Translations under genes and position numbers: made by a program
The notes under the pieces: generated by a model
Seen by the model: only the letters and a program-made list of their open reading frames with translations
Database searches by the model: none
What the model was told of the DNA's origin: nothing
Assembly: GCA_018902385.1 (NCBI GenBank)
Contig: JABSSW010000005.1
Location: 992,001 to 1,056,000, forward strand
DNA length: 64,000 nucleotides
Source: Physcia stellaris
Lineage: Eukaryota; Ascomycota; Lecanoromycetes; Caliciales; Physciaceae
Direction: 5' to 3'
In this document: piece after piece, positions 761-60,430 of the stretch
How the letters are laid out: every line of letters starts with the position of its first letter
Numbering within the stretch: the stretch's first letter is position 1

Positions 761-2430
761 GCGCTGTATCGCTTAACGCGGTAATGGTTGAAAGTTTTGT
801 TAATGTCGCAGATCTTGGACGAAGAATTCCGGCGTTGACTGAGATCGAACACGGGAAGATCAGGTTTGAAACAGATGCCGCTCGAGTAGATTCAAGGGTT
901 TTCGACAATGAGGTCTACATCGACAAGCATCGTGGAGGTTCTTAATGTTCCTCCATTCCGAAATACGTCTCGCTTCGTGGTCCGGCAACTAGAGGGATTT
1001 CGTTTGTTTATTTGAAGAGTTCTATCATCATCCAGATATGGGCTGCGCTTCTCTCGCCCAGACTATGAGTTCTTCGCCACAACAGAACTGACTGGAAGTT
1101 GCGAGAAACCTTGTTAAAGTAGTTCACCATTTGTCTGGGGTCAAAAGGAGAAGGTTTTATCCTGTTTGTCTTCGGAGGCGGTCAATTATGTGATTATAGC
1201 AGTCTTTTTGCGGCAAGAGGTATAGATGGACATGATGGAAGCAATCGGAAAAATTGAACTTTGAGTTAGGATATGAAGTTAAACTCTCACCGAGGATGTG
1301 AAACAGGCGAGAATAATTTACTCCTTTCTCGGCTTTTATGCATCGGAATTCCAGTATGGAAGCTTGGATATCATAGCGCTTTGATAAGATACATGACACA
1401 GCCCCGAACAGTAATTCCCGATGTTCCGACTGGCGGAGTCCAGGAGATCAGAGCGATGGCAAAGGACAGGGAAGTTGTTCGCCCTCTACGGATTCGATAC
1501 CATTTGGGTTCTACAGTCGGTAATCACGGATCCTTCGGTGATGTAACTGTACCGGAAGCTATCTCAGACTTCAATATCTGCTTTCGTGGTGTCGCAGAGG
1601 AGGGAGAATACCCTTTCGAAGCAAGCGAATAGAATGTATGCCGACATCTTCAGTGTTTTGCGTGTCTAATCTGGTCGTGTTGATCAAGAGACAAGTGCTG
1701 GCAGGCATTTCCGCATGCTGCTCGCGCAAGTGTTCAGTTCAACGGCTTTCTGTATTAGGTTTTGATGGGCTGAAAACGAATCTACCACTGAGGCTAGAGA
1801 CAAAAAATTTGGTGATGTGAAACAGGCCTGGCTTCACAATACTAGGGAAGAAACGAGATGAGTCAGATGTCGAGTTCTGACAAGCGATTTGATACAGGCT
1901 CGAGGCCTTTTGTGAAGTAATGGTCGATTTTCCGACTCGATGTCCGAGCTACCATGGAGGAGGAAGAGAATCGCCCGTCTATAAGAGTCAATGAAATAAA
2001 TATAAGACCGAATTTGCCATTGATGAAGGTATTGAACACACATGAAAGTCGGAGTCGTTCATACTTTCGGAAAGTCGGTCATCTCGAAGCATCAACACAA
2101 GTTTCAGGGAGTGCAAAGAGGGACTAAGTCCAACTTTCGAAGCCGAAGAAGCAGAGAAGGTGAAGAAACCGGAGAAGTGTGCACTCTTTCTTCACTCAAC
2201 TCTATACCAATGATCGTCAAACTTCAGCGATTATTTGTATCCATTTCATCCGAATTTCAGTGCCGTAATTGCCACCGAGCTGCCACGCCATTGATAATAT
2301 ACACCATCGAAGCCTCTAGTCACTCACTCCAATCATGCTGCACCGAGAATGTCAGTAGTGCTCGATGTAGAGAGGATTGAACGCACATGAAGCTCGCAAT
2401 CATCCATGCTTTCGAAAACCCTATGATTTC
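760..2430. other. No recognisable gene; worn sequence
   Basis: This stretch holds only short open frames on both strands, none with a recognisable motif, and no splice pattern I can defend. A fragment near 2440 already resembles the first unit of the following satellite. It may be decayed gene sequence. Confidence 0.5.
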
Positions 2431-3830
2431 CAATTTCTCCATCGGAATCCGTGAGCTCGAAATTCCAAAGCGATTATGGCTGTAAAGTATTTTTCCTTCA
2501 TCTTGGTCTTGTAGACACGTTCTGACGGGAACGATGGGCCTGATCAACTACAACGGCGTTTCCATCAACGCAGAAAGAGCAATATTCGCAATCTTCTTTG
2601 ATGTTGAATCTTCATCATCGTCGCAATTATCCATGCTTCTGAAAATTGCTTCCGAAAATTGCATGTTTCCACAAATTTCCCAGTATCCGGTGGGCTCGTG
2701 ATCCCAGAGGCGATTTTGGCTAGGCGCATTCCTGATAATGATAGCGACAAGTACCGCCTCAGCTTCGATTCTGTTGATACGTCCACTACGAGAGCCATTG
2801 AGAGCCTGATCGAATAAAGCGCACTTTTCGCTACTTCAGAAAGAGCAATGTCCGCAGCCTTTCTTTGGTGCTGAGTTTTCAACATCACCGTAGTCATTCA
2901 TGCTTTCGAAAACCGCATGTTTTCCCAGTTTATCCCGTAACTTGTGGGCTCGAGATTCCAGAGGCGACATGGCTAAGAAGCGTGCATCCGGGATATGATA
3001 GCGACAAGTATCGCCCTCTATAATTTCAATCCACATGTTTTCCCAGTTTCTCCCGTAACTTGTGGGCTCGAGATTCCAGAGGCGACATGGCTAAGAAGCG
3101 TGCATCCGGGATATAATAGCGACAAGTATCGTCCTCCAGAATTCCAATCCACATGTTTTCCCAGTTTCTCCCGTAACTTGAGGGCTCGAGATTCCAGAGG
3201 CGACCTGGCTAAGAAGCGTGCATCCCGGATATGAAAGCGACAAGTATCGTGTTCCAAAACTCCGATCCACATGTTTTCCCAGTTTCTCCTGGAACTCGTG
3301 GACTCGAGATCGCAAAGCCGATTTGGAGAATGCATTTGGAACTTTGGTAGCGACAAGTATCGTGTTCCAAAGCTCCAATCCGCATGTTTTCCCAGTTTCT
3401 CCCGTAATTCTTGGGCTCGAGATCCCGAAGCCGATCTGGCTAAAATTGCGCATTTCGAAATTTGGTAGCGACAAGTATCGCCTTGATCCTCTTCCAAAAC
3501 CCGCATGTATCCCAAATCCCCCCCCAACGCTTGGGCTCGAGATTGCCAATCGGTTATGGCCAGAAAGCGTACATCACCTATATTGCAAGTGACAAATATC
3601 GCCTTATCCTGATTCGAAACCCGCATGGTTCCCCAATTCCTGAAGTAACCCGTGGGCTCGAGATTCCAAAGTTACCCTGGCGGAAAAGCGTGCGTTTCGA
3701 CTTTGGGTAGTGGCAAGGAGCGTTGTGGTCTTCCTCCAGACCTGCATGTTTCCCCAGTTTTTCCTGTAACCCGCGGGCTCCAGATTCCAAACCAATCCAA
3801 CCCTCAGTCTGCACGTACACAGAGCCTGAA
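2430..3830. repeat. Satellite A, ~118-bp tandem units
   Basis: About ten units carry GTGGGCTCGAGATTCC at roughly 2448, 2692, 2943, 3060, 3180, 3298, 3412, 3530, 3653 and 3773. The seven inner spacings are 114-123 bp. Each unit continues with a GCGACATGGCTAAGAAGCG-like stretch, then GATAGCGACAAGTATCG, then CCACATGTTTTCCCAGTTTC. Units around 2940-3260 are nearly identical, which suggests recent local copying, while the outer units are more diverged. The minus strand keeps protein-like frames (for example LARSPLESRALKLREKLGKH), so the unit may come from an exon, but no family is recognised. Confidence 0.9.
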
Positions 3831-4236
3831 TGTCTGATTACATTGCAATCCGGTATGATGTCAAATGGGACGGCCGTGCCAACCCGACGGCGTAAATATT
3901 TCACTTGACTCAAGAGGATAGCATATTCTCAAACGACTCAAGGCTTTGTCGAATTCGGATATTGGTAGCGACAAGTATCGCATTGAGCTTGTTCTTATGG
4001 ATACGATTCTTGCGAAAATAATTGCGAACCTGATCAAACAAAACGGCTTTCCACTAAGGCGACTTTTCACTAAGGCAGAAAGAGCAATGTTCGCATTCTT
4101 GCCTTGGCACCGAGTCTGAGCTTGCATCGTATCCGTACATTGTAAGTTCAATCGTGTGAAAAAGTTGTGGTGCAAGCAAAGTAGAAGTTCATGCAAAGTA
4201 GTGGTTCAAGCAAAGTGGTTTACTTCAGCTGAGTCT

Positions 4237-4316
4237 CCACCCTCCCACCCGGCCGAAAGAAGGCTCGTCCACGCATGTCTACCTAATCTGTGAACGTCGT
4301 GCCCACCCACCCACCC
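4237..4316 (-). other. Paired C-rich quadruplex-capable tracts, locus 1
   Basis: CCACCCTCCCACCC (4237-4250) is followed 50 bp later by CCCACCCACCCACCC (4302-4316). The minus strand therefore has four GGG runs with one-base loops, the textbook pattern for a very stable G-quadruplex. The same module recurs at six other loci in this window. Confidence 0.75.
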
Positions 4317-4609
4317 TGGGCCAGATCGGTTATACTGTGGATTCTCGTTTGAATTTTCTCTATCTCCCGAGGGCGTGTCCACACTCTTGCTTTGGCACAG
4401 AGTCTGGGCTTGTGCCGTCTGGCCTTTGGATAGCTGCAAGAACGATGCAAGCAGGATCTTGTTGTTAGAGATCTTGCCGCATCCCTGCCTTATCCCTGCT
4501 TCGACGCTGACTCTTAAGCATGCATCGTCCCGAACCTTGTTGTCTGCAAGAATGGCTTCAAGCTTGGTCTTACCGACGCGTTGCTTCCGGACTCGAGTGT
4601 CAGTCATTA

Positions 4610-5830
4610 TTTTCATAACAATTCGTGGGCTCGAGATTCCAAAGGTACCTGGCTGGCAAGCATGTCTCGTTCGAATTTTGGTGACTGCAAGGATGACTTA
4701 TAGATACATTCCTTCCGGGACCGGGTGTCAGTCAGTCCACCCATAGTAATCGGTGAATTCCGGATTCCAGAGGTGACTCTGGCTCAAAAGCGTACATCGT
4801 TCCGAACCTTGGTAGCTGCAAGTATGGCTTCGATTTATCGATACGTGTCTTGCGGTATCGAGTGTCAGCCAATTTCTTGATAGTAAACCGCGAAATCGAG
4901 GTTCTAAAGGCGATTCTAGCTAACAAACGTGCATCGTTCCGAACTTTGGTAGCTGCAGGAATGGCCTCGTTTTGTCGATACGTCTCTTGCGGAGTCGAGT
5001 GTCAGTCATTTAATCATGATAATCCGTGGGCTCGAGATTCCAAAGGCGACTCTGGCTAGAGAGCTTGCATCGTTCCGAATTTTGGTAGCTGCAAGAATAT
5101 CTTCGTTGTATCGAGACGTTTCTTTCGGAACCGAGTGTCAGTCAGTGGGCTCGAGATTCCAAAAGGCGATTCTGCCTAAGAAGCGTGCATTGTCCCGAAC
5201 TTCGGTCGCTGCAAGAAGGCTTCAAGCTTGGTCTTACTGATACGTTCCTTGCGGGACCGAGTGTCGGCCATAGTCCGTGGGCTCGAGATTTCCATGGCGA
5301 CTCTGGCTAAAAAATGTGGATCGTTCCGGACTTTGATAGCTGCAAGAACCGCTTGTATTTTGGTCTCATCGATAAGTTCGTTGCGGGACCGAGTATCAGT
5401 CATAATCGGTAGGCTCGAGGTTCCAAAGGCGACTCTGGCTAGGAAGCGTGCATCGTCCCGAATTTGGTAGCTGGAAAAACGACTTCAAGCTTGGTTTTAT
5501 GGATACGTTCCTTGCGCGACCGATCAATTCGATCGACGAGCTCCTTGGTAAAAATGTCGGCGATCTGCTTGAAATGAAAAAAACTGAACATACATGAAAG
5601 TCACAGTCTTCCATGCTTCCGAAAATCACATGTTTTCCCAGTTTCTTCAGAGTAATCCGTGGGCTCGAGATTTCAAAAGGCGACTCTGACTAAGAAGCGT
5701 GCGTTGTTCCGAACTTTGGTCGCTGCAATAATGGCTTCAAGCTTGGTTTTATTGATACGTCTCTTGCGGACCGAGTGTCAGCTTGATCAAAGAACGGGCT
5801 TTTCACTTAGGCAGAAAGAGCATGTCCGCA
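4610..5830. repeat. Satellite B, ~120-139-bp tandem units related to satellite A
   Basis: Eight or so units share the satellite A opening (GTGGGCTCGAGATTCCAAAG) but then continue with GACTCTGGCTAAGAAGCGTG, GTTCCGAACTTTGGTAGCTG and a GACCGAGTGTCAGTCA end. Units begin near 4625, 4748, 4888, 5027, 5147, 5278, 5411 and 5658. The minus strand of several units is open and reads MTDTRSRKERISKTKLEA then KVRNDARFLARVAFGISSPR, a coherent basic segment, so this looks like an amplified exon. No family is recognised. Spacing is not always a multiple of three, so the frame is not kept along the array. Confidence 0.88.
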
Positions 5831-6600
5831 TTCTTGCTTTGGCATCGAGTCTCGTCACCAAAAGACAAGTATCGATCATCTCAATGCGTTTCGCGCTGTC
5901 TCGCCGAAGGTTCTCGAAGAACACTCGCGGGTGGCGCTCGATCTTGAAATGATATCAAGTATTCCTTTGTTATTCCGATCTTGTTTGACAGTCGCCTTGG
6001 GCTAATCTGTTGATCTTATTTGGCGAGAAAATCTACAATAGATTACTCATATTGGTGGTAGTCAAGTTTATTGCAAGGGATTTCTCTTTTCACTCGTCTC
6101 CTCGAAAGCCTTCTTCTTACTCTTTTCCCGGTTTTGATGTTCGGTTTTTCGTTCTCGGCTTCGATATCGATTTCAGGCCGTCACTCGCACCGTCCGTGCT
6201 AGAGATAGCAGGCTTTTCCTATTTACAGGAAGATATTACATCGAAGTTCGAGGTATCAGCTATCATTGCAGTATTTTCATTCAAGGTGAATTCACTATCA
6301 TCTGGGCCTATTCTGAAATATCTTCAGGCCCATGCCGACAAAGACACGTTCACGGTAGTTTTTTTTCAATCCATTCATGTGCTTTTGTCGTCTCAACCGC
6401 TTAGTCTCACTTATCTCGGTGAAGAAATCCGCCAATTTACTCGTTCAGTCTATTTGGCTTTCGACTTTTGACGACTTTGGCGTACATAACGGGTTTTCAG
6501 CCTAGCATTGTCCACAGCCTTCCTTTGGCACTGAGTCTTCGTTTCCAAGATGCTTCGCAGACCTCGACTTAGACGAGTTTTAGTGGTGAGCAGTTCGATC
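5830..6600. other. No supported gene
   Basis: A plus-strand open frame of 153 codons runs 6010-6471, but it opens on TTG, has no known motif and shows no repeat-independent support. Text near 6160-6220 (GCACCGTCCGTGCTAGAG) recurs near 15940 and in the array at 46000-46900, so this stretch is also partly repetitive. Confidence 0.45.
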
Positions 6601-8360
6601 ATCTCATGTACTTTACCGTCCTAGTGGTGTTTGGGTGGGGGTTTTTGTATGGTGAGATGGTGTTGTTGTGTGTTGTAGAGCCTTCGTCCTAATATATTAT
6701 ATGTTCAATTGCGCGCACAAGTGGTGGTACTAGTCCAGGAGTGGTGTTAGGGTGGGGGTTATTCCGTTTGGGGAGGTTGTTGGATGAGTAGTCCGATCAA
6801 GCTATGTAGTCATTCTATTGGTGTGAGGGTGGGGGTTTGCTTGTTTAGGAAGAGGTTGCTAATGTAGTTCGATCCCGTTGTGTACTTTAGCCATTCAAGT
6901 GGTGTTAGGGACAAGTCTTGACAGTGAGTAGTTCGATTACGGCGTGTACTTTACCATCCTAGTGTTAGGGTGGGGGTTTGTCGTTTGAGGAGAGGTCGTT
7001 GATGTGTATTTCGATCACGTCGTGTACTTTACCAACCTAAAGGTGTTAAGGTGGGGGTTTGGCGGTTTGGTGAGAGGTTGTTGAATGAGTAGTTCGATCA
7101 TGCCGCTTTGGCCGTCCTCTTGGTCTTGGGGTGGGGGTTTGTTTATCTGGGGAGATTTTGTTGGATGAACAGTTCGATGATACTGTTTACTTTGACCGTC
7201 CAATTGGTGTTAGGGTGGGGGTTATCCGTTTGGGGGAGGTAGCTGGACGAGTAGTCCGATCACACTGCGTGCTTTAATCACCCTGGTGGTGTTAGGGTCG
7301 GGGTTGGTTTGTTTGGGGGAAGTTGTTGATCGAATACGGAGACTCGCACCCAAAGGCCTGGTGTGCCAGAATTATTGAATTCTAGGGCTAGGAAAGTAGC
7401 ATCCGTTCCCAGCAGTCCGCCTTTGGCAGCCTAGGAATATCCCTATCACACTTTCAGGTGCTCACTTCTGCCTTCTTCGATTATTCCTCGTTTTTAGCGC
7501 ACATCAGGCCTTTGATGCGGGTTTCCGTAGTCCGATCACGCCGTGTACATTAAACGTCCTAGTGGTGTTAGGGTGGGGGTTCGTTTGCTCGGGGGGATTG
7601 TTGATCTGTGATGTAGAGCCTCTATTTTCGTACATTGTACGCTCCATCGTGCGAAAAAGTAGTCGTACAGGTAAACTTATTGGTATAGGCAAAGTATTGA
7701 TGCCAGCAAAAGTGGTGTTAGGGTGGGGGTTGGTTTGTTTGGGGAGAGGTTTTTGGTGTGTGCAAGCAAAGTAGTGGTATCGTCGGAGTAGTGGTTTTAA
7801 GGTTGGGGTTTGGCGGTTTGGCGATAGATTGCTGATATGGTGTAGAGTCCCGTTTCTAGTGAATTGCACGTTGGATCTGCGGGAAAGTGGTTGTCCAATT
7901 TGTTGGAGGGAGGGGAGAGAGATCACTGATGTGTGCTACCATGCCTTTATCCTCGTCTATTGTACGTCCAAAGTGGTGACGCAGAGAAAGCAGTGATGTC
8001 GGCAAGCGGTGTTAGGGTGGGGGTTTGGCTGTTTGGGGAGAGGTCGCTGGTGTTAGAGTCTCTATTCCAATACATTGTACTGTCAATCCGCGAAATAGGG
8101 GTTGTACATGGTGAGTTATTGGTACACGCAAAGTAGTGATATTAGCAACAGCAGCATTAGGGTAGGGGTTTGTCGTTTGGAGGAGATTCTTGATGGGTGT
8201 CTCTATTCTCGTACATTGTACAAGCAACAATAGTGGTGCTATGGTAGGGGTTTGTTCGTTGTGGAGAAGGTTGTTGGTGTGTGCAGGCGAAGTAGTGAGT
8301 GGTATTAGCAAAGTAGTGTTAGGGTGGGGGTTAGGTTGTTTGGAGAGAGGTGGCTGATTG
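6600..8360. repeat. G-rich satellite array 2
   Basis: About fifteen copies of the TTAGGGTGGGGGTT core occur between 6622 and 8320, roughly half exact. Spacing is 75-150 bp except for a gap at 7340-7550 that holds unrelated sequence. Here the core is often followed by TGAGTAGTTCGATCACG and a CGTGTACTTTA segment, the same string found in the 180-bp array that follows, so two families have merged at this border. Confidence 0.85.
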
Positions 8361-8399
8361 TGATGTAGAATCTACTCTCATTTGGGGATAAGTATGTAA

Positions 8400-10260
8400 A
8401 GCTTTCGCAATCCCACGTTTGCTGCCTTCATCGGCACCGAGTCTTCGTCACCGGAATCCTCGCAAGACCTCGACTTACAAGCCTTGGCCGTGATTAGTCC
8501 GATCACGCCGTGTACTTTAGCCATCCCGTCTCTCTCGCTCGTTTCGAAATAGGTGTGTAAAACCTTCACATTCTTGACCCTTCATTAGCATCGAGTGCTC
8601 GTCACTAAAATGCTTCGCAAGACCTCGACTTACAAGCCTTGACGGTGAGTAGTTCGATCACGCCGTGTACTCTAGCCATTCCATCTCTCTCGCTCGTTTC
8701 GAGATAGGTATGCAAAGCCTTCGCAATCTCGCGTTGCCCCCGAGCATCGAGTCTTCGTCCCCAAAATGCTCCGCGAGTCCTCGACTTAGGCAAGTCTTGC
8801 CGGTGAGTAGTTTGATAACGCCGTGTACTTTAATCATTCCATCACTCCCACTCGTTTCGAGATAGGTATGCAAAGCCTTCACGATCTCGCGTTGGCCCTT
8901 CATCGGCGTCGAGTCTTCGTCCCCAAAATGCTTCGCAAGTCCTCGACCTAGGCAAGCCTTGGCAGTGAGTAATTCGATAACGCCGTGTACTTTAGCGATT
9001 CGATTCCTCTCACTCGGCTCGAGATAGGTGTGTAAAGCTTTCACAACCTCCCATTTGTCCTCTTCCGTCTCTGGAAATTTGTTCAATATGCGGAAGTGGT
9101 TGATCACCTCACTTGGTTGTAGCCCTATAGCGGCATTGAGAAACATTTGGTGCCCAGGCCCAGATGTCGTGAAAAATGCAATCGCAGCAGTCGCTTTGCA
9201 TATTTTGTTCAAGGTTATCAAGCTTGGTATTGGTAGTCAGGACGTTCACGCCGCGGTTCTTCCTGTTGAATTCTTCCATGGCCATTGCTCGCCTTTGTGA
9301 CTTCTGGTGTCAACGATCGAAATACCTGTCCTAGCCGTTGGCTATGGCTGGCTGTGAGGTATACCGCTCAGAGTATTGAGATGGAATTGGATATCCCATC
9401 ACTCTCATTCGTTTCGAGATAGGCATGTAAAGCCTTCACAATCTCACTTCCTCCTCGGTCTCTGGGAATTTGTTCAATATGCGGAAGCGGTTGATCACCC
9501 CAATTGGTTGTAGCTCTACAGCGGCATTAGCCTTGTCTTTGCCGCTTTTGATGTCAATGGCCGAAATACCTGTCCTGGTCGTTGTCCATGGCTGGCTGTG
9601 AAGTAGACCTCTCAGAGTGGAGATGAATTCTGGCATTCCATCACTCCCATTCGCTTGGAGTTAGGTATGCAAAGCCTGCAATATCACTTTTGTCTTCTTC
9701 AGTCTCTGGGAATTTGGTCAAAATGCGGAAGTGGTTGATCACCTCACTTGGTTGTAGCTCCACATCGCCGCAGTCGTGCCATTCTTGTAGCTTCACAATC
9801 TCACGTTTGTCCTCTTCAGTCTCGGGAATTGTTCAAAACGCGGAAGCGGTTGATCACCCCACTTGGTTGTAGCTCCACCTCGCCGCAGTTGTGCCATTCT
9901 TGTAGCTTCCGAGATGTCCGATCACGCCGTGTACTTTACCCATTCCATCACTCTCACTTGTTTCGAGGTAGGTATGTAAAGCCTTCACAATCTCATGTTT
10001 GTCCTCTTCGATCTCTGGGAATTTCCAAAATGCGGAAGCAGTTGATCACGCCATCAGCTTGTAGCTCTACAGCGCCGCAATTATGCCATTCTTGTAGCTT
10101 TCGCGATGTTCGATCTCGCCGTGTACTTTAGTCATTCCATCTCTCTCGCTCGGTTCGAGATAGGTATGTAAAGCCTTCACGACCTCACCTTTGTCCTCTT
10201 CGGTCTCTGGGGATTTGTTCAATATGCGGAAGCGGTCGATCACGATCAGATTAAAAACGC
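8400..10260 (-). repeat. ~180-bp exon-like tandem array
   Basis: Four or more units between 8400 and 9010 and several partial ones to 10260 share, on the minus strand, REIVKALHTYLETSERDG, MAKVHGVIELLTAKAC and HFGDEDSMPMKGQ. A second module, GVINRFRILNKFPETEE, recurs at about 9060-9130, 9460-9500, 9700-9740, 9810-9870 and 10010-10240. In some units the Ala-Cys end runs straight into GTAAGTCGAGG, which looks like a 5' splice site. The array therefore seems built from at least two exons of one unknown gene. Confidence 0.75.
8658..9221 (-). pseudogene. Best-kept frame of the 180-bp array
   Basis: This is an open frame of 187 codons with no ATG at its start. It contains GLQPSEVINHFRILNKFPE, then two in-phase copies of the VKALHTYLE.S...(G)M.KVHGVIELLTAKAC.. 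module about 54 residues apart, and decays at the end into another frame. The Cys, Leu and charged residues repeat in register, so the sequence once coded. I do not recognise the family. Its lack of a start and its setting among worn copies make an active gene unlikely. Confidence 0.5.
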
Positions 10261-10499
10261 CATCTCCACGCTCGAACTCGATTGACGTCTAGGAAAGCTC
10301 GGACCTGACCTATAGGAGGATATGCCCTAGCGTTTGACAAGGTGAGTAGCTTGCTTAGTTCACTGTGTGGGTCGGGGTTGAGAGAGTGGTAGAAGGAGGA
10401 TGGGGAGGGATGTATGCTTCTTGGTCATAGGGGCGGTTTGCGATGAGGGAGTGGATTTGATGTACAGTGGAAGAAGACAGGCACGAGGTAGGCGGAGGG

Positions 10500-10615
10500 A
10501 TTTGTGAGGAAAATGGGGACAGAGACGAACCTTCTTCCCCGGTAGCACCTGTCCATCTTTTTCGTAGTATTCTCGGATTCACCAATGTCTGCCCATTGAA
10601 TTCGTTGACCGAGAC
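10500..10615 (-). pseudogene. PC4/Sub1-like coactivator fragment, copy 1
   Basis: The minus strand reads SVNEFNGQ in one frame and IREYYEKDGQVLPGKKVRL in another. Together these match the beta-sheet core of the transcriptional coactivator p15 (PC4/Sub1) family, where the pattern is VSV..F.G...(V/I)(D/N)IREYY...G...PGKKGISL. The fragment lacks the rest of the gene and changes frame inside. Other copies lie at 27560-27750, 32655-33095 and 33490-33610. Confidence 0.6.
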
Positions 10616-10689
10616 ACGCCGCTTGTCTAATATCTTGAGTTCATAATCAACTATTTTGAAACGGTCACTGGCGATGAATGTCGGTGACA

Positions 10690-10795
10690 GCGCCGGTGTT
10701 GTGCCACTTCTGTAGCTCTACAGCGCCGGTGTTATGCCACTCTTGCAGCTCTACAGCGCCGCTGTTATGCCATTCTTGTAGCTTTCGGCAGCACC
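10690..10795. repeat. Three ~38-bp tandem units
   Basis: AGCTCTACAGCGCCG followed by TGTTATGCCA and TCTTG repeats three times here, and single copies lie at about 9765, 9885 and 10065 in the preceding array. It appears to be a sub-repeat that expanded out of the 180-bp family. Confidence 0.75.
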
Positions 10796-10939
10796 TTTGC
10801 CTTTGCCGCTACTTATGTCAATGGCCGGAGTAGCTGTCCTTGCCTTGTCTCTATGTCTGGCTGGAATGTCGTTCAGAGGGCTGAGGGGGCTTTGACATCC
10901 CATCACTCTCACTCGTTTCGATATAGGTATGTAAAGCCT

Positions 10940-11460
10940 TCACAATCTCCTGTTTCTGTCACCGAATCTTCGTCCCCAAAATGCTTCGCAAGGCCTCGAC
11001 TTGGACAGGTACCTCCTACAAAAGACAGTCAGAAGAGAGTTGGCAAGGGTAGGGTTGATTGGAGTAGCTGACCTCGCTGTTGCCTGTAACTGGCCGTGAA
11101 GTATAACGCTCGGAGCGTTGGTGGCTCTCTGTGATTGCTGGCTGCTGCGATGGGGTCGGGCTCCCGTCGTATGATGGCTGGACGGATTGTTGCTGCGAGC
11201 CACGCCGGCGGTCGCTGCTGTGGTGGTGGTAGCGGCTGTTGTTTCCGCCGTTGCCGTGGCGGGAGGTGGTGGAGATAGTGATGGTGTTCGTGATAGTGAT
11301 GACGGTGCTGGTGCTGAGCTCTCGCTGAGCTCGTGCTGTGCCTGCCGCTGTCCTGGCTGATGTGCTCGCTGTCGTGTTCGTCGTTTGGCCGCCAGCCGCC
11401 GCTGCTCTATTCTTTGGGCCTATGCTTGTGCAGTTTATTGCTGCTGCTGCTGGATCTCAT
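10940..11460 (-). other. CTG/GGT-rich low-complexity stretch with Ser/Thr/Pro-rich frame
   Basis: Plus-strand CTG, GGT and GCT triplets are dense from 11190 to 11460. The minus strand stays open for a Ser/Thr/Ala/Pro-rich segment that passes into VARSNNPSSHHTTGARPHRS near 11190 and on to 10940. The end of this frame (SVILHGQLQATARSA) resembles segments read at 9570-9640 and 9320-9360, so the stretch belongs to the same decayed gene family rather than being an isolated gene. Confidence 0.45.
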
Positions 11461-14199: not shown

Positions 14200-14481
14200 T
14201 TGAATAGGATTCCTCCAGGACCCAGCGCTTTTGTTAATCGCGGGGAACGGGGAAGAAAAGATTCAACATTTATCGTAATTGTCTTTCCGGACGATTACGA
14301 AAGAGAAACAGACAAGCGACATAAGGACTTTGATTATTTGAAGAGGCCCGAATATTACGCCTATTACGACACTCGCATGATAGCAGCTTTAGGCTTGCGT
14401 GTGCGCTATCCTTTTGCTGATCTCCCAATATTCGCTAATCGCTTCTACCATCAAGTATCCATCAACCCCTCCCACCATTGA
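14200..14481 (+). CDS. Short acidic/aromatic open frame, unknown
   Basis: From ATG at 14200 a frame of 93 residues contains a run rich in Asp, Glu, Tyr and Lys (FPDDYERETDKRHKDFDY) and ends after RVRYPFADLPIFANRF. The last part has a relative in the plus frame at 16150-16200 (GDLFADLP). The flanks (about 14165-14220 and 14480) belong to the exon modules repeated at 14650 and 15970 on the minus strand, so the frame could be a chance overlap. No family is recognised. Confidence 0.25.
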   Translation: MNRIPPGPSAFVNRGERGRKDSTFIVIVFPDDYERETDKRHKDFDYLKRPEYYAYYDTRMIAALGLRVRYPFADLPIFANRFYHQVSINPSHH

Positions 14482-35350: not shown

Positions 35351-35351
35351 G

Positions 35352-41900: not shown

Positions 41901-41901
41901 G

Positions 41902-48015: not shown

Positions 48016-49220
48016 GTGTAGCACGGCAGCTAGCGGCCCGCTGCATAACCGCGTTTTCTTCTTAGATCTGGTGAGCCGCATCGAGAGCCAAGACAGTGCA
48101 GTTGCCTTCTTTCAGTACACGGCTACCCAGTCTCATATTGCAGAGCGTGCACTTCGCACACGATCTCCGCTCTCATCACCTAGGTTCATCGATCATCCAC
48201 CCTCCACCATCATCATTGAGCAACAAGTCGTGCTCCGATTCTTAGACGCCTGTTCTGGCACGACTCGACGCGTTTCTGGATTCTAAGTCGCGCAGTAGGA
48301 CTCGTCAAGATTATAATAGGGGAAAAAGAGAGAACGCGGGACGCGATGTTCAGGGTGAGTAGTCTTCTGTGTTACTTGGGGTTTACCTGATTGGAAGTCC
48401 CATGAAATCCAGAGCCAGCATAATGGTCGATGTCGTCTTGCTGACCTAGCATCTCAGATGCTTGGCTCCGGAACGCCTCAATAACGAGATCTATCGAGAC
48501 GATCGACGCTGTCAAAATACGGCTCATCGCTATCGACGAAACACATTGCATATCCGAGGGAGAACATGCCGGTCTGATTGTCCGAAAGGTACATCGAGCC
48601 AGCGACCGCGTCTAGGCTTCGACTAAACATGATGTACTAGTAGCGAGGGATGTCAGAGTTGGAGCGGAACGGATCAGCGTGCAACAGCAAGCCATCTCCC
48701 TCTGGAAGTGTAATCAGCGTTAAGATGGAGGCTACCCTTGAAGTGGCCGACGATATATGTGCAACTTCCGAGACAAAAGGGATTTTTAGAACGACCACGT
48801 ATCGCTCAGGGCAGCGAAGTACCACTCATATCACAAATGCAACGACAAATTTATTACCAGTACATGTAGATGCCTTGTGTACTGTGTGAATGTGACTCGT
48901 ACATCCATTTGGAGTCGACAAGTCGTGTAAATGGCATGATTCGAATATCCATCTGTCCCTCCTGTAGTCTCTCATACCAATACAGGTTGGAATACCAATT
49001 GTGTGCTCTCACTAGAACACACTTATCGTATAGTCCATATTAAAGTTCCAGTTGCAGACTGGCGACGGTGATACTTTGCATGATTCTTTTCTCTATTCAA
49101 GAATTGCCATGTAATCTCCAGCACCCTGTCATGTGTCTGACTCGTCTATCTTCACTGGAGTCTTGACCGTTAAGTGTGATACTAATCCTAAGCCTATTTA
49201 TGGGATGAGGCTAGGGAGGA
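48015..49220. other. No recognised gene
   Basis: Only short frames, for example 48650-48889 on the plus strand, none with a motif. No tandem unit is seen. Confidence 0.4.
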
Positions 49221-50790: not shown

Positions 50791-52910
50791 GCTGTCGCCA
50801 AATCGGGGTCTAGGCTGACGCCTTCGCTACGAACGACGACTATCGGGTCTCTTCACATATGACGGTGTTGATCGATGAATAATGCGACGATCTTCGCAAT
50901 TAGCAAGACATACTTCATTGAGCAGCCCGGAAACGTCGGGCTTAAACTAGGATGGGTCGATTTCATCTCCGGGAATTTACGAGAGTACTCGGTTTGATCC
51001 AGACAAGCTTCGACTGATATTGTTCTGATAGCAGAATAGCAAGATAATGATCGTTTGAAGAACGGTCTCTCTTGAAGTCGATTGCCTTGCAGAATAATTT
51101 GTGAGTTGACCAGTCTGTTTTCTGGCAACTGGAAGAGCAATAGGCGAATCATTTGCACTTCTTGTGTCTGACTCCTCAACCTCCACTGAAACCTCGCTTA
51201 TTGAGTTTGATACTATTTGTGGCGCCATAGGCGGGATGGAGGAGACGTACGGGAGAAAATATCGAAGTGAAGAGAGACATTTGTCTGATAGCTTGTTCCC
51301 CTACACGATGAACAAATGCCGTATGTATTGAAAGGCATGGGAAATGACTGCATGAATTGCGTGTGTTCTAAGTAAGTGGTCCCTTGACTGCAACACATGC
51401 GAACGCTGTACTTCTCAACACTTGCCACAGCATCCACGTATGCCTCCTGCTCAGTACCCTGACGAGCCTGGCCTAGAATTTCGTGTAAGCTTTCTCAGCG
51501 ACGAGTCCTAGGAGTCCCTCAACGACGCAAATCCTGAATCTTCCGTGCAAGCTGCTTCAGCGCGGGAGATCATTGACCAATCCGAAGATGTGGGTTACCA
51601 TCGTTGCATTGCATACAGGCACCTCCAACGCAGTAGATCCTAGTGCTCCCCCAGCGAAGTGACACCGGGCAAGCTTCTTCTGCTTCACTTCCCTCCGCCT
51701 TTTCTGCTTCACAGGCTTCGGACGTTGAATTTTCTGCCTCTCCACTCTCTGTAGTTGTCGCCAGATAGGGTCTAGGCTGATGCCTTCGCTGCGAATGACG
51801 ACTATCGGGCCTCTCCACTCATGAGGATGCTGGTCTCTTGTTATGTCGATTAGAGATCGACAGCTACTGAATCCGTCTGTTAATGCACTATTGCGGAAAT
51901 ATACCCGTACTTATTCATCCTCTCGCTGCCGTTGAAAGGTCGACAGTTCTGTAGCTGTCACCGATAGGGATTTAGGCTGATGCCTTCGCTGCGAATGACG
52001 ACTATCGGGCCTCTCCACTCACGACGATGCTGGTCTCTTGTTATCTCAATTAGAGATCGACAGCTACTGAATCCGTCTGTTAATGCACTATCGCGAAAAT
52101 ATACCCGTACTGTATCAATCATGGGAAAGTTTCGTAGCACGTTCCGGTGGATAATGCGACGATCTTCACAATCGGCAGGACGTACTTCGCTTAGCTGCTC
52201 GGAAATGTCGGGCTTATACCAGGATGGGTCGATTTCATCTTCGGGAATATACTCGTGCTTGACCCAGACAAGCTTCGATTGTTATTGTTTCGATAGCGGA
52301 ATAACGAGGTAATGGTCGTTGACGGTCTTCCTTATCCGATGGTCTTCCAGATTAATTTGTGGGTTGACCAGTCTATTTCCTGGCAAATTGAAGAGTAATA
52401 GGCGGACGATTTGTTCTAATAACAGAATGGCAGAATAGCAGAATGGCAAGGTAATGATCGTTGACGATCTTTATTGGAGCCGATTGCCTTGCAGAGTAAT
52501 CTATGGGTTGGCCAGTCTGTTTCCTGGCAAATGGAAGAGCAATGGGCGGACGATTTGTTCTGGTAACAGAATATCAGAATAGCAGGATAGCAAGGTAATG
52601 GTCGTTGAATGTCTTTCTTGAAGCCGATTGCTTTGCAGAGTAATTTGTGAGTTGACCAGTCTGTTTCCTGGCAAATGGAAGAGCAATAGAACGACGATTT
52701 GTTCTGACAGCAGGCTAGCAAGGTAATGGTCGTCGACGGTCTTCCTTGGATCCGATTATCTTGCAGAGTAATTTGTGGGTTCGTCAGTCTGTTTCCTGGC
52801 AAATGAAAGAGCAATAGGCGGACGATTTGTTCTTCTCCTTGGTAAGTGGAAGAGTAATAAGTGGACGATTTGCACTGGATGCAGAGCTTAGCATTCGAGT
52901 TGTTGCAGGT
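50790..52910 (-). pseudogene. MYND zinc-finger gene pieces, tandemly repeated
   Basis: On the minus strand a MYND finger half reads YCSSSCQKTDWSTHKLFC at 51142-51089. It recurs four or more times between 52900 and 52310 (for example AYCSFICQETD at about 52820-52788, CSSICQETDW..HKLLCK at about 52690-52630 and 52540-52480). LCIQCKSSTYY at about 52893-52861 gives the preceding Cys pair. This is the C..CK...YC...CQ..DW..H...C pattern of PF01753. Copies of a later part of the same gene (WRGPIVVIR) lie at 50850-50795, 51930-51745 and 52290-51958. MYND fingers bind proline-rich protein motifs. Stops and frame changes, and Cys to Tyr in one copy, mark it as non-functional. Confidence 0.75.
51958..52290 (-). 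pseudogene. Longest open piece of the MYND-family C-terminal domain
   Basis: About 108 codons stay open on the minus strand: KLVWVKHEYIPEDEIDPSW, YKPDISEQLSEVRPADCEDR, RIIHRNVLRNFPMIDTVRVY, FRDSALTDGFSSCRSLIEIT and RDQHRREWRGPIVVIRSEG, then a stop. From memory of the family, basidiomycete MYND proteins carry a region with YFRD..L.DG...N.S, HR..WRGP+VV+R and then DVTL.D.R..VDYF, and this order is found here and at 59650-60430. Related copies are at 16690-17080 and 25760-26420. It has no start codon and no zinc finger in the same frame. Confidence 0.65.
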
Positions 52911-53214
52911 GGTAGTGCGTCCCTGGGAGGATAGACTTGGGTATGAACTTCCACTTACCCAAGATATGTCATCTTCTCGCTGGGTATACGAATTTATCGA
53001 CCAGATGGAACTGTGTGATCAGAACCTTCGATGAGTAGGCAGCAGCGCGGTTACATCTCGACAGCCACTACTGTGCCATAATCGACTCTGGGTTTCGGAC
53101 GAGACGGGTTTTTCGCGCATTCTTATGATATTGGTGATCATTGTATGGGGTGAAAAAGATATCCCATGGTCTCGTGTGGTGCTATCTTGCTTCCCGCGTC
53201 GATACACCCAATAC

Positions 53215-53395
53215 GATAATACGCTTACCCGCGTTTGGCACAAAGCGTACGAACGACCTGAAGACGATATGAAAGTGACATGAAGACAACATCATCTTCT
53301 GGTTCGTCCGAAGCCGAGTAATCGTAGAGCTGTCGATATATCCTAAAAACTCGCAGCACTTATTACCAGACCATAGGATAAAAGGCGGGCGTGTT
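53215..53395 (-). repeat. Dispersed ~150-bp family, copy 6
   Basis: ACCCGCGTTTGGCACAAAGC, ACATCATCTTCTGGTTCGTC, GAAGCCGAGTAATCGTAGAG and TTATTACCAGACCATAGGAT are in family order. Confidence 0.65.
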
Positions 53396-53515
53396 TCTTT
53401 TTGGAGGCGGCCGATCAGATCATAATAGTCTTCGGGCGTCAGCAAATCCCAAACATTGAATAGATAAAGTGGAAGCCATCGAGACATACCCTCCCATCCA
53501 GAATTTGGAAACCAC

Positions 53516-53912
53516 GCTAAAGCCTCATCCGCCTGATTGCCAGAACAGAGCAACAAGACAATGGGTGTGTGGACGGTGGTTTATAGCAAGCAGTAGCCCA
53601 CAGGGAACCTGCAAAACGGACCAAACTGGAGCTGCCTCTATGCCGAAACCAAACTCCCAAACCTCAAGACTCAAGCCGCCGAAGGAAAAGTCCATAGACG
53701 GCGCCAGCGTCGCCAAGAGCCATAGAACAGGCCAGGGAAGGACGCCGAACGAAAGGGGAAGATAGTATGTGATCTCAGTCTCGAAAAAATAAAAGACGAA
53801 AGATGCAGAAACCAGAAGCTCGGAAGAAAAAAGGTCGCCTATATAGACGTGCCAAGCCCCAGCCACTGCAATTTCGTCTCATTTGCTTCAGCATCCTGGT
53901 CCAGCCGGCCGA
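53516..53912 (-). repeat. TATA-palindrome family, copy 6 (type B)
   Basis: Full-length reverse copy with ends GCTAAAGCCTCATCCGCC and CAGCATCCTGGTCCAGCCGG, the type B middle (GACGGCGCCAGCGTCGCC) and GTCGCCTATATAGACGTGC. Confidence 0.78.
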
Positions 53913-53914
53913 CT

Positions 53915-55240
53915 TCCAACCTAAATTCCGCTCTTACTCGGGGTATCGGTTGTCACCCCCTCACCCAATATATTCGCTCCCTATCTGTAGCCATAACATT
54001 AGGTTCGCTCTATCAACCGGAAATTTAGCTGCTTTCTCTCACACTGTATTCGTCAACCTCTAACATCAATCTCACCATACAACGAATCATCGGTCCACCC
54101 TTCCCCTTGGAGAGATGTCGTCCTCTCCTCCTGATCGCATTAATCCATTCCGGCATTCTATATCATAATGCGCTCCGTTTAGTAAATCGTTCCTAGACTC
54201 GCAATTAATCCAATTTGGTGGCGGATATCTGCGGGAGCTGATTGGCGCGCGATGCCCCCTTATTCCGGCACGACCCGTGGTCGGCGCAACAACACAACAC
54301 TAGACGTGACTCATAGTAATCTTCTTTAATCAAACTTAAAGTCAACGTCTCTTCATGCTTCCCAACCTCGTCTCAATACCTGACATCAAGTTTCCACTTC
54401 TGTTGCATACCCCCAATACCCCTTTTTGGTCCAGTCGCCAGATGTATCACCACAGCGTAGATGATGAGTAAGTCGTCGGATGCATCTAAACATTGAATTA
54501 GCACTCGACTCGTACAATATACTGGAGCTTGCCTCGTCATCCATCTTTGCCTCAATGCCCAACGTCCAATATTCCCAACCTTACCTTATCAATCTTTGCC
54601 CCAATACCCAGGGTCCAACATGGTAAGATTGTCTGCGTATAACTTCATCCGAGCCTCGTAAGTCGCTCGCGGTACTGGTGTAAGTTGATACGGTAAGCTA
54701 CGGGATTAATCCACTTTATTTCGTCTTTGTCCATGGACCGGTATTGCGCAAAGCGATAGCGTGTACACCTTAGTCGTAGAGATCATTAGGTAGCCTTTTC
54801 CCCTTTACCCTTGTTCCAGTTATTGAAACGTATCGGCCACGGTGCCCATCTGACTTCATAGTTAGAAAGAGGGCAAGCCTACTTGGAATACAACGAATTC
54901 GCTAAACGACAAGTTGCGAGCATCGAGTATCATCAACACAACAACTTTCGAACGATAAGAGCAAGCCAGTACTAGAAGAAAGAGATGTTCAACCCAAGTA
55001 CTCACCACTGACAATCCACTTCAACACAGAGTCTCGTCCCTTCAAGTAGCTGGCACCAAACATTGACTGTAATTACTTTGACGCATTCGTCTTCGTGATG
55101 ACTCTCAAGTTCAACGTTGACCCAGACTAAAGCGATGTTGTGTTAGACATAAGAGATCCAGATACATCTCAACCACTTCAGCATATAGTCTCTCATTCCT
55201 TCAAGCAGCTGTCCAAGAATCGATCATAGGCGTTACAGGA
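53915..55240. other. No recognised gene
   Basis: The stretch is pyrimidine-rich on the plus strand with many CATC and CAAC words and short frames only. GTAAG and CTTAC words suggest introns of a diverged gene, but no exon chain can be built. Confidence 0.4.
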
Positions 55241-56248: not shown

Positions 56249-56799
56249 TTCACATGCCTGCTTTACTCTCGCTCCTTCATCGAATTGATCGCTATTAGTG
56301 CTGGAGTGGATGTTGGTGTCGGCGTTCGGGCTTTTGGAGTGGGCTTGGTTCTCAAATCTTCCCGACCGAGGATTCTTCCCCTCTCCCAATTACACCCCCA
56401 TCGATGCATCAACCACAAACATCCGAGTTGTCTCAGCTCATAAGTGTGAGGTTACCCTTATCTTACAGTACTGTCTTCTGCTAATGGCACACGTGGACAG
56501 CCTGAAACACCTCGTCGATTGTGCATACGGCTCCCCACATCCATCTCCTCTACATCCTACGCTCCGACAACAGTACGATGATCTTTCTGTGTCCTAGCCT
56601 TCCTATAACCTTTCAACCATTCATTAGGACTCTCCATCGCCCCTACACCCTGCACTCCAAGCAAAGCGGCCTACCTTTCTCTCTTCTACTTTCGGCCTGC
56701 CTACAAACCTTTCCCACCAACTACACCGATCACAATCGGGCGGGGGGAATTCCGGATGCATTCATACCTTCTAAATATCCTTTGCCTCGACCGGTCCTG

Positions 56800-58880
56800 T
56801 GCTCTGGGTCACTCGATCTCATTTGGACGTCTGCTTCCTGGGAAGAGTGAAAAGCAAGGATGGGCATTTGTCTAAGAGGGTGACATGCTCGAGGAGAATG
56901 AAGAACACTCAGTGCTCTAGGTCACTCGGTTTCAAATGGCATCCGCTTCCTGGGAACAGTGAAAAGGATGCGCGTTGGTCTAGGATTGGATCATATTCGA
57001 GGGGAATGAAGGACACACTTTGCTCTGAGCCACTCGATCTCAATTGGGCATTCTCCTTGTGGAACAGTCAAAAGCAGGTACAGATTTGCACTGGTCTAAG
57101 AGGTTAACATAGTCGAGGATACTGAAGCAGGGGCAACAAGGTTATCGCTATTCACTTCCTTAGGATCTCCACCGCACCCCAGACTTCGGGTCACTTGATC
57201 TCAGTTGGACGCTCGGCTTGGTCTAGGAGGGCAACATACTCGAGAATAATGAAGTAGGGGCAACAACGTTCTCGCTATTCACTCCCTCTACCGCGCCCTA
57301 CGCTCCAGGCCCTCAATCTCAACTAAATGTCCGCCTTGGAAGAGTCAAAGCAGGTGGATGCGCATTCGTGCAAGAGGGCAACAAACTCGAGGACACTGAG
57401 GTAGGGGTACCAAGGCTCTCGCTATCCACCTCCTCCACCGCACCATACGCTCCAGGCCACTCCAACTCACCCGCTTTGGAAGAGTCAAAGGTAGATACAT
57501 GGGCATTAGTCGAAGAGGGTAACATAATCGAGAAGAAGGAAGAATACCCTGTGCTCTGAGTCACTCGATCTCAATTGGACGTCCACTTTGGAAGAGTCAA
57601 AAGAAGGTGGATGCGCATTGGTCTAGGTGGGCAACATACTCGAGGATAATGATGTATGAGCAACAAGGTTCTCGTTATTCGCTTCCTCCACCGCATTACG
57701 CACCAGCCCCTCGATTTCAATTGGATGTCCACTTTGAAAGACCTAAAAGCGGGGAGATGCGCATTGTTTTAGGAGGGCAATATACTCGAGGATAATCAAG
57801 TAGGAGAACACGTTTCTCGTCGTTCAATACCCCCACCGCTCACTGCGCTCTAGGCCACTCGATCTCGCTTGGAACGTTGGACACGTACTTTTTCATCAAG
57901 AGAGGGATCAATAGCAGCGACCGGCGCACAGCAGTTAAGGAGGGCAAGATATTCGGGCGGAAAAAGGATGGGCAAAACAGGTCTCGCTATCTCTGTCTTC
58001 GCCGTCTCTTACCTGCCTTCGCGGGCTATCCTCCGTCCCCCAACTTCTGTCTCCATCCGACTCTGCAGTCAAGCCCGCCCGTCCTCACCTGGATACCTAC
58101 TTCTGTGAAGGAGTCAAGAGCAGAGGAGGACTGGCTAGAGGCAACATACATTTGGACACATGAAGGGCAACAACGATTCCGCTATCCTCTGTTTCCATTG
58201 TACTGCCTCTACTGTACCTTGGGCTTCAGACCACTCAATCTCACTTCGAGACCTATCTATGTCTCTCAATGAGTCAATAACGACAGGGCACGGGGTATGG
58301 AAATATTATAATCGCGGGCATAGGAAGGAAGGACGACAAAGTTCTAGCCCTACTCGGCCTCTCGATTTTCCTCTGCCTCAAGCGGCTATCCCCTGCCTCC
58401 GCCGGCTACTTCGTGGTCTGGTGTCGTGCTATCTGCCCTTGATGTGTTGTCACTGGCCTACCCATTGTGACAGAACGCCTACCCGTTTTTGGTACAAAGC
58501 ATATGAAGCCGTCATCAAGATGACTCCATCTTCTGATTTCGTCAAAAGTCGGGTGAGAGCAGATCTGTCCCTGTAGCATGAAAGTTAGCACCACTTACTA
58601 CCAGACCATGGCATACTCTGCCTACACCTCTTCTGCGCTCAAGGCCACTCGATCTCAATTTGACATAGTCAAGAGCAGTTATATATGGACGGTGATTGGA
58701 AACCACCATACCTGTCATGAGGAGCATAATGGCTTCTTCGAAAGAGTCAAGAGGAGGTACTGATGCCGACAAGAGGATCTATACAATCGCGGAGACGAAA
58801 CGGTGCCATTTCAATGCGCCTTACCTCCAAAAGTCCTGCGCTCTGGGTCTGTCGATCTCACTTGGATCGTTGCATACCTA
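56800..58880. repeat. ~105-160-bp tandem array
   Basis: About eleven units carry CACTCGATCTCAATTGGACG or a variant (56813, 56925, 57028, 57187, 57313, 57562, 57711, 57857, 58224, 58637, 58852) followed by GAAGAGTCAAAAGCAGGTGG, GCGCATTGGTCTAGGAGGGC and AACATACTCGAGGATAATGA. Unit length and content become irregular after 57900. No coding frame is kept across units. Confidence 0.75.
58480..58615 (-). repeat. Dispersed ~150-bp family, copy 7
   Basis: ACCCGTTTTTGGTACAAAGC, CTCCATCTTCTGATTTCGTC, AAAAGTCGGGTGAGAGCAG and TTACTACCAGACCATGGCAT are in family order, inserted in the tandem array. Confidence 0.68.
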
Positions 58881-59264
58881 CCTCTTCGATAGATGTAAGA
58901 GCAGGTCCGATGCACAATGGCCAAAGTACAAGCTCAGACACAACTGTCACAGGGTCATACATCATTCAAAGGGAGCAATCGAATCTGGGAAGACAAATGG
59001 GAAGCAAAGCACCCGGGCGCATGCGTTGTGCACAAATCTCGAGCTACATTATCCAGTACTGTCGTGATTGATTTGTCGGCATTAGTCACAGAAGGCGCAA
59101 TTAGATTGCGCCGGACATTATTTGCAGTCGGATACTGCCGACAGCTTTCAGGTTAATACAAAGTGTCCACAGTACAAGGGATCAAGGAAGGTCGGCTTAC
59201 GGCGGAGCAAGAGCAGCAGGCCAATAGAACACTCCTATAGCTGTCGGGTTTTCAATAGAGATTG

Positions 59265-59645
59265 TCATTGAGGTCCGGTCGCAGATCGATCCACACTAGG
59301 TAAGACGGTAATACTTATGGTGGCATGAAGGGAGGCAACGTGACTTCTGCTACAAACAATACATAAGGGACAAAGCAAGAAGCAACGGTGTCTTCGTCTA
59401 ATTTTCCCCAATAGCTCCCCTGCCCTCTTCCCCCGAGCCTCCGAGCCCACGCCATTGGTGCCCTTGTTTGGCGGGTGATCCGCCCATTCAGTACGTGGTG
59501 ACCACCCCGGATCATCCTTAACACTTTCGCTGAGACCTTTGGTTGATTCGAGCCATGACTGGGATTGTTCCCGATTTATAATCTCGCTTGCCACATGCCG
59601 GTTGATCAACTCTTCCGTTTCTTCATCTACAGCTTTACGAGCCAT
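59265..59645 (-). pseudogene. Open frame related to 60751-61059
   Basis: A minus frame of about 126 codons starts at ATG 59645 (MARKAVDEETEELINRHVAS). Another frame at 59524-59315 reads MIRGGHHVLNGRIT, equal in pattern to VIRGDHHVMDGRIT at 60810-60760. So an exon is shared between the two places, in different frames. Family unknown. Confidence 0.35.
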
Positions 59646-59649
59646 AATC

Positions 59650-60430
59650 CGCTTTGACGCCTTCCACGCAATATCCTAAATACTCCGGATTTGTCCCTCC
59701 TTCCACACAATATCCTGGATACTTCGGATCTGTGCTAACAGCGGCACTTCAAGGAGCTTCGAGATGGGTATCGGTGTTTGGTTTCTGAACGCAGGGTGGT
59801 CCATCGGCACGTGGAGCGCGGAGAATCTCTGACGGCAATGTATCGATTTGTCACCAACACAGCTTATTTTGACGCCTTCCACCCAATATTCCGGATACTG
59901 CCGATCTGTGTTAACAGCGGCATTTCAAGGAGCTTCGAGATGGATATCGGTGTTTAGTTTCTGAACATAGGGTGGTCCATCGGCATGGAGAGTGCTGAGA
60001 ATCTTTGGCGGCTATGTATCACTTTGTCACCGCTTTATTTTGACGCCTTCCCCATGGGATTTTGGATACTTGGGATATGTGCTAACAGCGACATTTCAAG
60101 GAGCTTCGAGATGGGTATCGGTGTTTGGTTTCTGAACATAGGATGGTCCATCGGCACGCGCAGCGCTGAGAATCTGGGACCGCCTCGTATCAATCTGTCA
60201 TCGTCGCAGCTTATTTTAACGCCTCCCACAATATATCCCGGATACTTTGGATCCGTCCCTCCATCCACACAATACTCTGGATACTTCGGTTCCGTGCTAA
60301 CGGCGGCGATTCAAGGAGCTTCGAGATGGGTATCGGTGTTTGGTTTTTCGTCGACACCATAAGCTATGAAGTAGTCTGCCGCACGACGAAGATCTGCAAG
60401 TGTCACATCCTTGAGTCCAGATGATCTAGG
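59650..60430 (-). pseudogene. MYND-family C-terminal pieces, three to four tandem copies
   Basis: The minus strand carries DVTLADLRRAADYFIAYG at about 60415-60360, then DPKYPGYIVGGVKISCDDDR, GGPRFSALRVP and MDHPMFRNQTPIPISKLLE at 60268-60090. Near copies of the second part follow at 60040-59900 and 59882-59700. In the family as I remember it, V+GV+I.CD.D and DHP+F....+.IS lie after the DYF segment, so the order is right. Tandem period is about 190 bp. Only the C-terminal part is present. Confidence 0.65.

Follow-up and report, generated by a model that had tools for sequence, protein, structure and literature searches.

Many tandem arrays in a 75-kb island of the Physcia stellaris genome align to genes on other contigs

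How does a stretch of a fungal genome come to be filled with short tandem arrays that resemble pieces of unrelated genes and repeat at similar periods? This question is raised by 64,000 bases of the Physcia stellaris genome, contig C5:992001-1056000 (hereafter, the window), in which an original prediction, made from the sequence alone, had seen at least eight families with no sequence in common and suggested that one process cuts out exon-sized gene segments and multiplies them locally. We joined 100 kb of C5 to either side of the window and examined the resulting 264 kb against the rest of the genome (43,974,083 bases, 147 contigs); positions below are relative to the window unless a contig is named. 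The published assembly (PMC7513301), somewhat larger at 46.57 Mb in 184 scaffolds, combines Nanopore (31x) and Illumina (30x) sequencing of an axenic culture grown from ascospores. With such data, arrays of copies this dissimilar are unlikely to result from mixed or collapsed reads.

The island and the source tracts of its arrays

The arrays lie in an island of ~75 kb, from about -5 to +70 kb, with an AT-rich block on each side (about -12 to -6 kb on the left, +78 to +88 kb on the right). As predicted, diverged direct arrays fill the region: Tandem Repeats Finder (TRF) lists 37 rows for the window, the share of sequence in local direct duplications is 35.8% in 70 kb of island versus 1.7% in 128 kb of GC-normal flank (12.4% in 66 kb of AT-rich flank), and self-matches less than 3 kb apart are direct in 263 cases and inverted in 8. 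Non-overlapping arrays with periods of 80-250 bp number 13 in the island and 2 in the GC-normal flank, about twelve-fold more per kb, with arrays of 8-29 bp (15 versus 14) only about two-fold denser. The 80-250 bp class is peculiar to the island within the 264 kb examined, yet it is broad. The 44 tandem spacings (multiples included; multiples and fundamental periods were judged by eye) range from 78 to 1141 bp, with a median of 198 bp and an interquartile range of 123-280 bp, so that in place of the expected shared period peak we find a wide class, mostly about 80-330 bp. Nor are these long homogeneous arrays of the classical satellite kind; the TRF rows of period 80 bp or more hold 1.8-4.8 copies with 73-93% matches.

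Rfam and tRNA scans gave no matches, and Pfam, run in six frames on the first 19.4 kb of the window, returned PC4 alone, after which sources were sought at the DNA level; in the window, Pfam cut-offs were passed by PC4 at one place and by MYND at two. The DNA searches of the fungus's own genome scored the best 39-40 of 104-365 candidates in most cases, and further sources may exist; all candidates were scored in the search with the 56.8-57.9 kb array and in one other. The DNA around matches outside C5 was then aligned back to the 264 kb. Overlapping hits were dropped, best score first, at 50% overlap for piece counts and at 30% for the C-to-T, shared-site and codon counts.

Thirteen source tracts of ~0.17-1.5 kb each, on ten other contigs, yielded 158 pieces in the island, from about -4.9 to +69.6 kb, and not one elsewhere in the 264 kb. 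A C26 gene for a RecQ helicase, whose matches to Helicase_C, RecQ_Zn_bind and DEAD exceed the Pfam cut-offs, corresponds to 33 pieces through one tract and to 1 through another; that is, 580 bp of its open frame recur as 33 pieces across 9 kb. The PC4/Sub1 gene on C77 matches 32 pieces, a MYND gene on C8 20, and a C15 gene for an uncharacterised 617-residue protein (G7Y79_00015g038350 of Physcia stellaris; 100% over 97% of the query) 16. The largest family, with 47 pieces, matches a 230-bp tract at C15:367.5k, which has no convincing reading frame of its own and is not obviously coding. The remaining sources are a C2 open frame that has Nse4_C and Nse4-Nse3_bdg matches next to it in the same orientation and that we take to be exon 1 of an Nse4 gene (1 piece); a C6 gene, which we take to be Sec31-like, with a Pfam TPR_Sec16 domain upstream of the captured tract in the same frame (2 pieces); an LRR-like gene on C2 that just misses the Pfam cut-off (22.9 bits against 24; 1 piece); and loci on C41, C46 and C10 (1 piece each) and C59 (2 pieces). 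Median identity between piece and source is 76-95%, and 78-86% for the five multi-copy sources.

As a control, seven non-source loci (~3 kb each), namely other MYND loci, gave two short matches in the 264 kb, one of them inside the island (29.3 kb); these loci were rejected as the array source. Twelve stretches adjoining the captured tracts served as a second control: eleven had no match, and one had three matches, which extend the C15 tract. The other loci are presumably sources rather than copies, because intact frames are found in the RecQ, PC4, MYND, C15 617-residue, C2 (Nse4), Sec31-like and LRR-like cases; for C41, C46, C10, C59 and C15:367.5k this direction is assumed.

Thus, the prediction was right for many arrays in deriving them from host genes elsewhere in the genome and in having them multiplied locally. 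Its eight families without shared sequence, whose names we matched to ours by their coordinates, reduce mostly to three genes. One RecQ open frame contains satellites A and B and the 162/192-bp ("180-bp") unit as pieces that overlap or lie next to each other, unit A (about C26:136790-136907, by eye) overlapping unit B (136819-136947); the PC4 unit and the GCGGGCCGC unit belong to one PC4 gene, and the MYND array and the 176-bp array to one MYND gene. Alignment to these shared parents rules out eight independent sources. The features are as follows, in window coordinates.

2031-5863, plus strand: satellite A (118 bp) and satellite B (about 128-136 bp), repeated copies from RecQ C26:136689-137033, within one open frame; longest single piece here at 5523-5863
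6506-11007, plus strand: "180-bp" unit arrays (154/162, 192, 244, 117 and 33 bp), from RecQ C26:136989-137268, with other stretches interspersed
9133-9292, plus strand: match to C41:401532-401699, abutting a RecQ copy
10318-10635, plus strand: PC4/Sub1 piece, from C77:74522-74857, including an intron of ~220 bp (placed by eye), in a 460-bp stretch between two RecQ pieces
14381-16567, plus strand: pieces of the C15 617-residue gene, C15:220953-221800, parent order largely kept from 15252 on
14751-15087, plus strand: piece of the open frame adjacent to the Nse4 matches, C2:192407-192746
16698-17218, plus strand: MYND-gene pieces, C8:517288-517726
18807-22856, plus strand: copies of the C15:367502-367735 tract; others at -4.7 to 0.7, 6.6-8.4, 29.9-30.2 and 37 kb
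20750-20929, plus strand: match to C46:186637-186824
25793-26348: MYND-gene pieces, one per strand
27452-27921, minus strand: matches to C59:4281-4574 and C56:18106-18398
27922-28883, minus strand: inverted pieces of the C15 617-residue gene
30434-30779, minus strand: match to C10:341635-341979
32716-34794, plus strand: PC4 arrays, an exon-3 piece (spacing 157) followed by the 5' part of the gene (periods 99-123)
38373-38540, minus strand: Sec31-like piece, ~95% to C6:944852-945055, the highest identity among single captures
43616-44535, minus strand: inverted PC4 pieces, C77:74812-75074, two of which span the exon 2/3 intron (by eye)
45835-47735, plus strand: PC4 3' end pieces, the GCGGGCCGC unit among them
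48454-48808, minus strand: second RecQ piece, C26:138305-138690, around the DEAH box (by eye)
50806-52913, minus strand: MYND array, C8:517097-517594, periods 128-200
56796-57873: array of period 108-113 bp, for which the genome search found no parent
59654-60501, minus strand: 176-bp array, MYND gene, C8:517514-517855
61190-61407, plus strand: piece of the LRR-like gene, C2:1250876-1251093

The units are not exons. Those of RecQ and MYND begin and end at arbitrary sites within single open frames of 293 and 476 residues, the MYND tract taking up most of the initial 780 bp of a 1.2-kb frame. The PC4 pieces cross introns: that at 10318-10635 aligns at 79% across the stretch with the ~220-bp intron, and it and those at 43753-43968 and 44268-44535 span introns (all by eye), rather than lacking them as retropseudogenes would. 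The protein-like frame that had been thought to persist is not confirmed either. Only 10 of the 44 spacings are divisible by 3; insertions and deletions relative to the parent mostly break the frame (non-multiples/multiples of 3: RecQ 44/4, MYND 19/5, C15 29/5, PC4 exon 3 9/2, PC4 exon 2 6/0, C2 (Nse4) 0/1); and the MYND stretch holds 25 stops in 700 codons in one frame. Of the proposal that the units trace to host exons, there remains the match to host genes; exon borders are not matched, and about half of the duplicated bases have no match among the genes found.

Source matches account for 17,252 of the window's 64,000 bases and dispersed repeats for 6,117, 23,364 together; the dispersed-repeat intervals were copied by hand from the search output, with C76 included because of its matches to many places in the island. 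One dispersed repeat, at 41874-42567, has inverted arms (42042-42105 and 42410-42473) flanking an 8-bp tandem array and matches on many contigs. Another, at 31529-35736 and 53503-53916, has two parts of ~340 and ~380 bp and is up to 92% like C46:100593-101316. A short repeat of ~230 bp at 53157-53384, perhaps an element like a short interspersed nuclear element or a miniature inverted-repeat transposable element, is 81-86% identical to sequences on 19 contigs among the matches listed. In the GC-normal flank, the stretch from -98000 to -96000 consists to 58% of strong local repeats, which match none of the 13 island sources.

Descent and decay of the copies

Neighbouring pieces of the same source within 400 bp form 116 pairs, of which 115 are on the same strand and one is on opposite strands; 84 overlap in source coordinates on the same strand, 20 step forward and 11 step back. 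Derived sites are shared between copies at 0.020-0.127 per site, versus 0.006-0.018 predicted by independent capture (RecQ, PC4, MYND and the C15 617-residue gene), i.e., 2.9-10 times the prediction for the four sources tested, to be read as an upper bound. The distance between copies is 0.75-1.62 times that between parent and copy, and it mostly rises with physical distance. As judged from these alignments, many copies evidently descend from one another within the island. The shared derived changes and the near-uniform direction of neighbours indicate that capture came first and tandem duplication in place followed; given the shared sites, separate recapture of every copy from the parent is not favoured. 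The ~95% identity of the Sec31-like piece suggests that captures took place at different times.

Differences between copies and parent at codon positions 1, 2 and 3 are 0.119, 0.128 and 0.166 for MYND; 0.137, 0.126 and 0.246 for RecQ; 0.137, 0.119 and 0.245 for PC4 exon 3; 0.168, 0.147 and 0.173 for C15; and 0.125, 0.084 and 0.168 for the single C2 (Nse4) copy. Positions 1 and 2 are about equal in MYND, RecQ, C15 and PC4 exon 3, and a clear excess at position 3 is seen in RecQ, PC4 exon 3 and MYND. The rates of the latter three fit unconstrained copies with a parent drifting at synonymous sites; those of C15 fit an unconstrained or a fast-evolving protein.

These rates bear on whether the island could be an old cluster of paralogous genes that decayed in situ, as might be supposed from the RecQ and PC4 pieces, which cover coding regions and, in the case of PC4, jointly run almost the full length of the gene, start to stop (by eye). 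We disfavour this reading as very improbable, since codon positions 1 and 2 have diverged about equally, the PC4 intron is still alignable, and the 264 kb hold no match to the remainder of the MYND gene or of the Nse4 gene, nor to the RecQ sequence that lies 5' of its two tracts or separates them. It is also hard to believe that the arrays are kept by selection, for example as a source of small RNAs acting on their parents (RecQ, Nse4, PC4). Small RNAs could arise from transcribed arrays, and genome maintenance is the role of two (RecQ and Nse4) among the five sources that exceed a Pfam cut-off; but the Sec31-like, LRR-like and MYND genes and the tract that is not obviously coding fit no single target set, and the median identities to source, 78-86% for the multi-copy families, speak against it too.

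A proposed mechanism and its alternatives

The best explanation, to which we assign a probability of roughly 0.7, is that gene pieces were captured by repair, were then tandem-duplicated in place, and have drifted without selection. Capture would consist in the uptake of filler DNA from other loci during end-joining or template-switch repair of breaks. The first duplications would be of the end-joining type, with little junction homology and steps of mostly about 80-330 bp; unequal exchange and slippage between copies would account for later growth and shuffling, and the copies would then drift as pseudogenes in selection-free DNA. The periods would be alike because a single duplication process, not exon excision, sets the step size.

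At seven junctions picked for their sharp borders, the best microhomology within 6 bp is 2-4 bp, against a random mean of 3.5 bp drawn from one source locus. This chance level, found at all seven, suggests that the initial duplication needed no homology, and together with the 84 of 116 neighbour pairs that overlap on the same strand it is what end-joining tandem duplication is expected to leave. Slippage seems to act too, as the 33-bp array at 10687-10783 lies on an imperfect repeat already present in the parent (by eye).

Several observations weigh against this explanation. Just 11,320 of the 23,341 locally duplicated bases in the window trace to a source, and 13,001 to a source or a dispersed repeat; for the array at 56796-57873 no parent was found in the genome, all candidates having been scored. 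Change in the parent since capture inflates the shared-site excess, and leaves unexplained the rise of copy-copy distance with physical distance. C15 lacks a clear excess at position 3, and PC4 exon 2 is irregular (0.239, 0.108, 0.176), although the frame used held stops and this row was set aside. The junction test is weak because the copies have diverged, and the steps of break repair are taken from the literature. Finally, the GC-normal flank, including its intergenic DNA, is almost without such duplication, so that a general neutral process would need a local cause.

A gene-capturing transposon of the Helitron or Pack type might instead have delivered the fragments, the arrays growing later. 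Many gene pieces from many sources, introns included, are typical of Helitron capture, and dispersed repeats of roughly 200-700 bp occur in the island; Helitron and Pack-MULE transduplication likewise gathers intron-bearing fragments of host genes in non-coding DNA. Among the matches listed, however, each gene-like source was found at one other locus and in the island and no multi-copy carrier was found, the pieces of PC4, like those of MYND, are found in either orientation at places separated by tens of kb, and growth of arrays in place dominates. One PC4/RecQ junction has no target duplication (by eye), with no search aimed at termini or RepHel. We consider this origin unlikely.

Capture followed by duplication in place has parallels elsewhere. 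In the pericentromeric segmental-duplication mosaics of primates, many loci also contribute to one acceptor region, followed by local duplication; their pieces are tens of kilobases long, whereas those of the island are hundreds of bases, and in a fungus.

Tandem duplication at breaks, and distant and at times complex templated insertion, are documented (PMC8355091, PMC11724301, PMC9779921). The small tandem duplications that arise at double-strand breaks through CST/Pol-alpha fill-in and non-homologous end joining (PMC8355091) are, like those of the island, direct, in place and independent of sequence; the short ones described there are below 100 bp and single events, whereas the island has steps of mostly about 80-330 bp and many rounds in one place. 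The distant templated insertions of yeast dna2, rad27 and RPA mutants (PMC11724301) similarly bring together pieces from across the genome, sometimes several at once, but follow induced breaks, mostly in mutants, in contrast to the natural long-term accumulation seen here. In the titles and opening abstracts of the papers found, which cover part of the literature, no fungus is described as having such arrays.

How satellite DNA arose usually has to be worked out after its source has disappeared. In this island, most of the arrays named earlier align position by position to apparently living parents, which makes step size, orientation, junctions and mutation spectrum readable. The island offers an example of ordinary genes turning into satellite-like DNA, and a caution for surveys of gene capture: array units need not be exons.

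CpC loss around the island

The AT-rich blocks (GC 23-29%; -64 to -57, -36 to -25, -12 to -8, 78 to 86 and 142 to 164 kb) are almost devoid of CpC. Its observed-to-expected ratio is 0.00-0.01 in four of the five and 0.44 in the fifth, versus 0.96 in the gene block and the island; in the AT-rich blocks the ratio is 0.20-0.45 for CpT, 1.2-1.5 for CpA and 2.75-3.4 for CpG. Many 2-kb steps in these blocks hold no CpC and no GpG where about 20-45 are expected, and some inner or edge steps are undepleted. Elsewhere in the genome, 4 of 14 loci on other contigs contain a 500-bp step with a ratio of 0.0.

A weaker form of this bias is seen in the island: relative to five sources, its copies show C-to-T changes at frequencies of 0.183 at CpC, 0.134 at CpT, 0.085 at CpG and 0.063 at CpA; the eight single-capture tracts pooled give 0.160, 0.161, 0.064 and 0.020, respectively. 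The C15:367.5k family lacks this pattern (0.105 at CpC, 0.216 at CpG), which counts against a mild island-wide version of the process. Repeat-induced point mutation (RIP) of the CpA type is rejected as the cause of divergence by the low frequency at CpA, and TpA/ApT, at 0.70 in the island and 0.42-0.66 in the AT-rich blocks, gives no sign of it either. C-to-T change of the ultraviolet type was considered but is disfavoured: the frequency depends on the 3' neighbour, and of all contexts TCA has the lowest. The data point to a RIP-like C-to-T process that would nearly saturate CpC, unlike the usual CpA target.

Matches to the cytosine DNA methylase family at C6:791557, C3:340323 and C5:498855-499792, one with two TGA codons in the matched frame, are candidates for this process. 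No CpC loss is described in the titles and opening abstracts of the papers found. For Rhizoctonia solani, C-T changes are tabulated as one per 214 bp at CpC, more closely spaced than at CpG (370 bp) (PMC4014442), and a CpC bias is among the contexts scored in Mycosphaerella graminicola (PMC4522978). A CpC bias in itself may not be new, and it is the near-total loss that stands out.

Capture, duplication and CpC loss may even be linked. More speculatively, the island could be a standing engine that makes satellite from captured DNA, with duplication confined to the locus, in steps of ~80-330 bp, beside a genome-wide RIP-like mutator; this mutator would erase CpC in long repeats and touch short pieces only lightly, its length limit deciding which arrays survive. 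We hold this combined reading to be rather doubtful.

A single stretch of the island, at 40751-41750, has a ratio below 0.6 for CpC and GpG together in 500-bp steps (0.43-0.54, with GC of 0.37-0.39).

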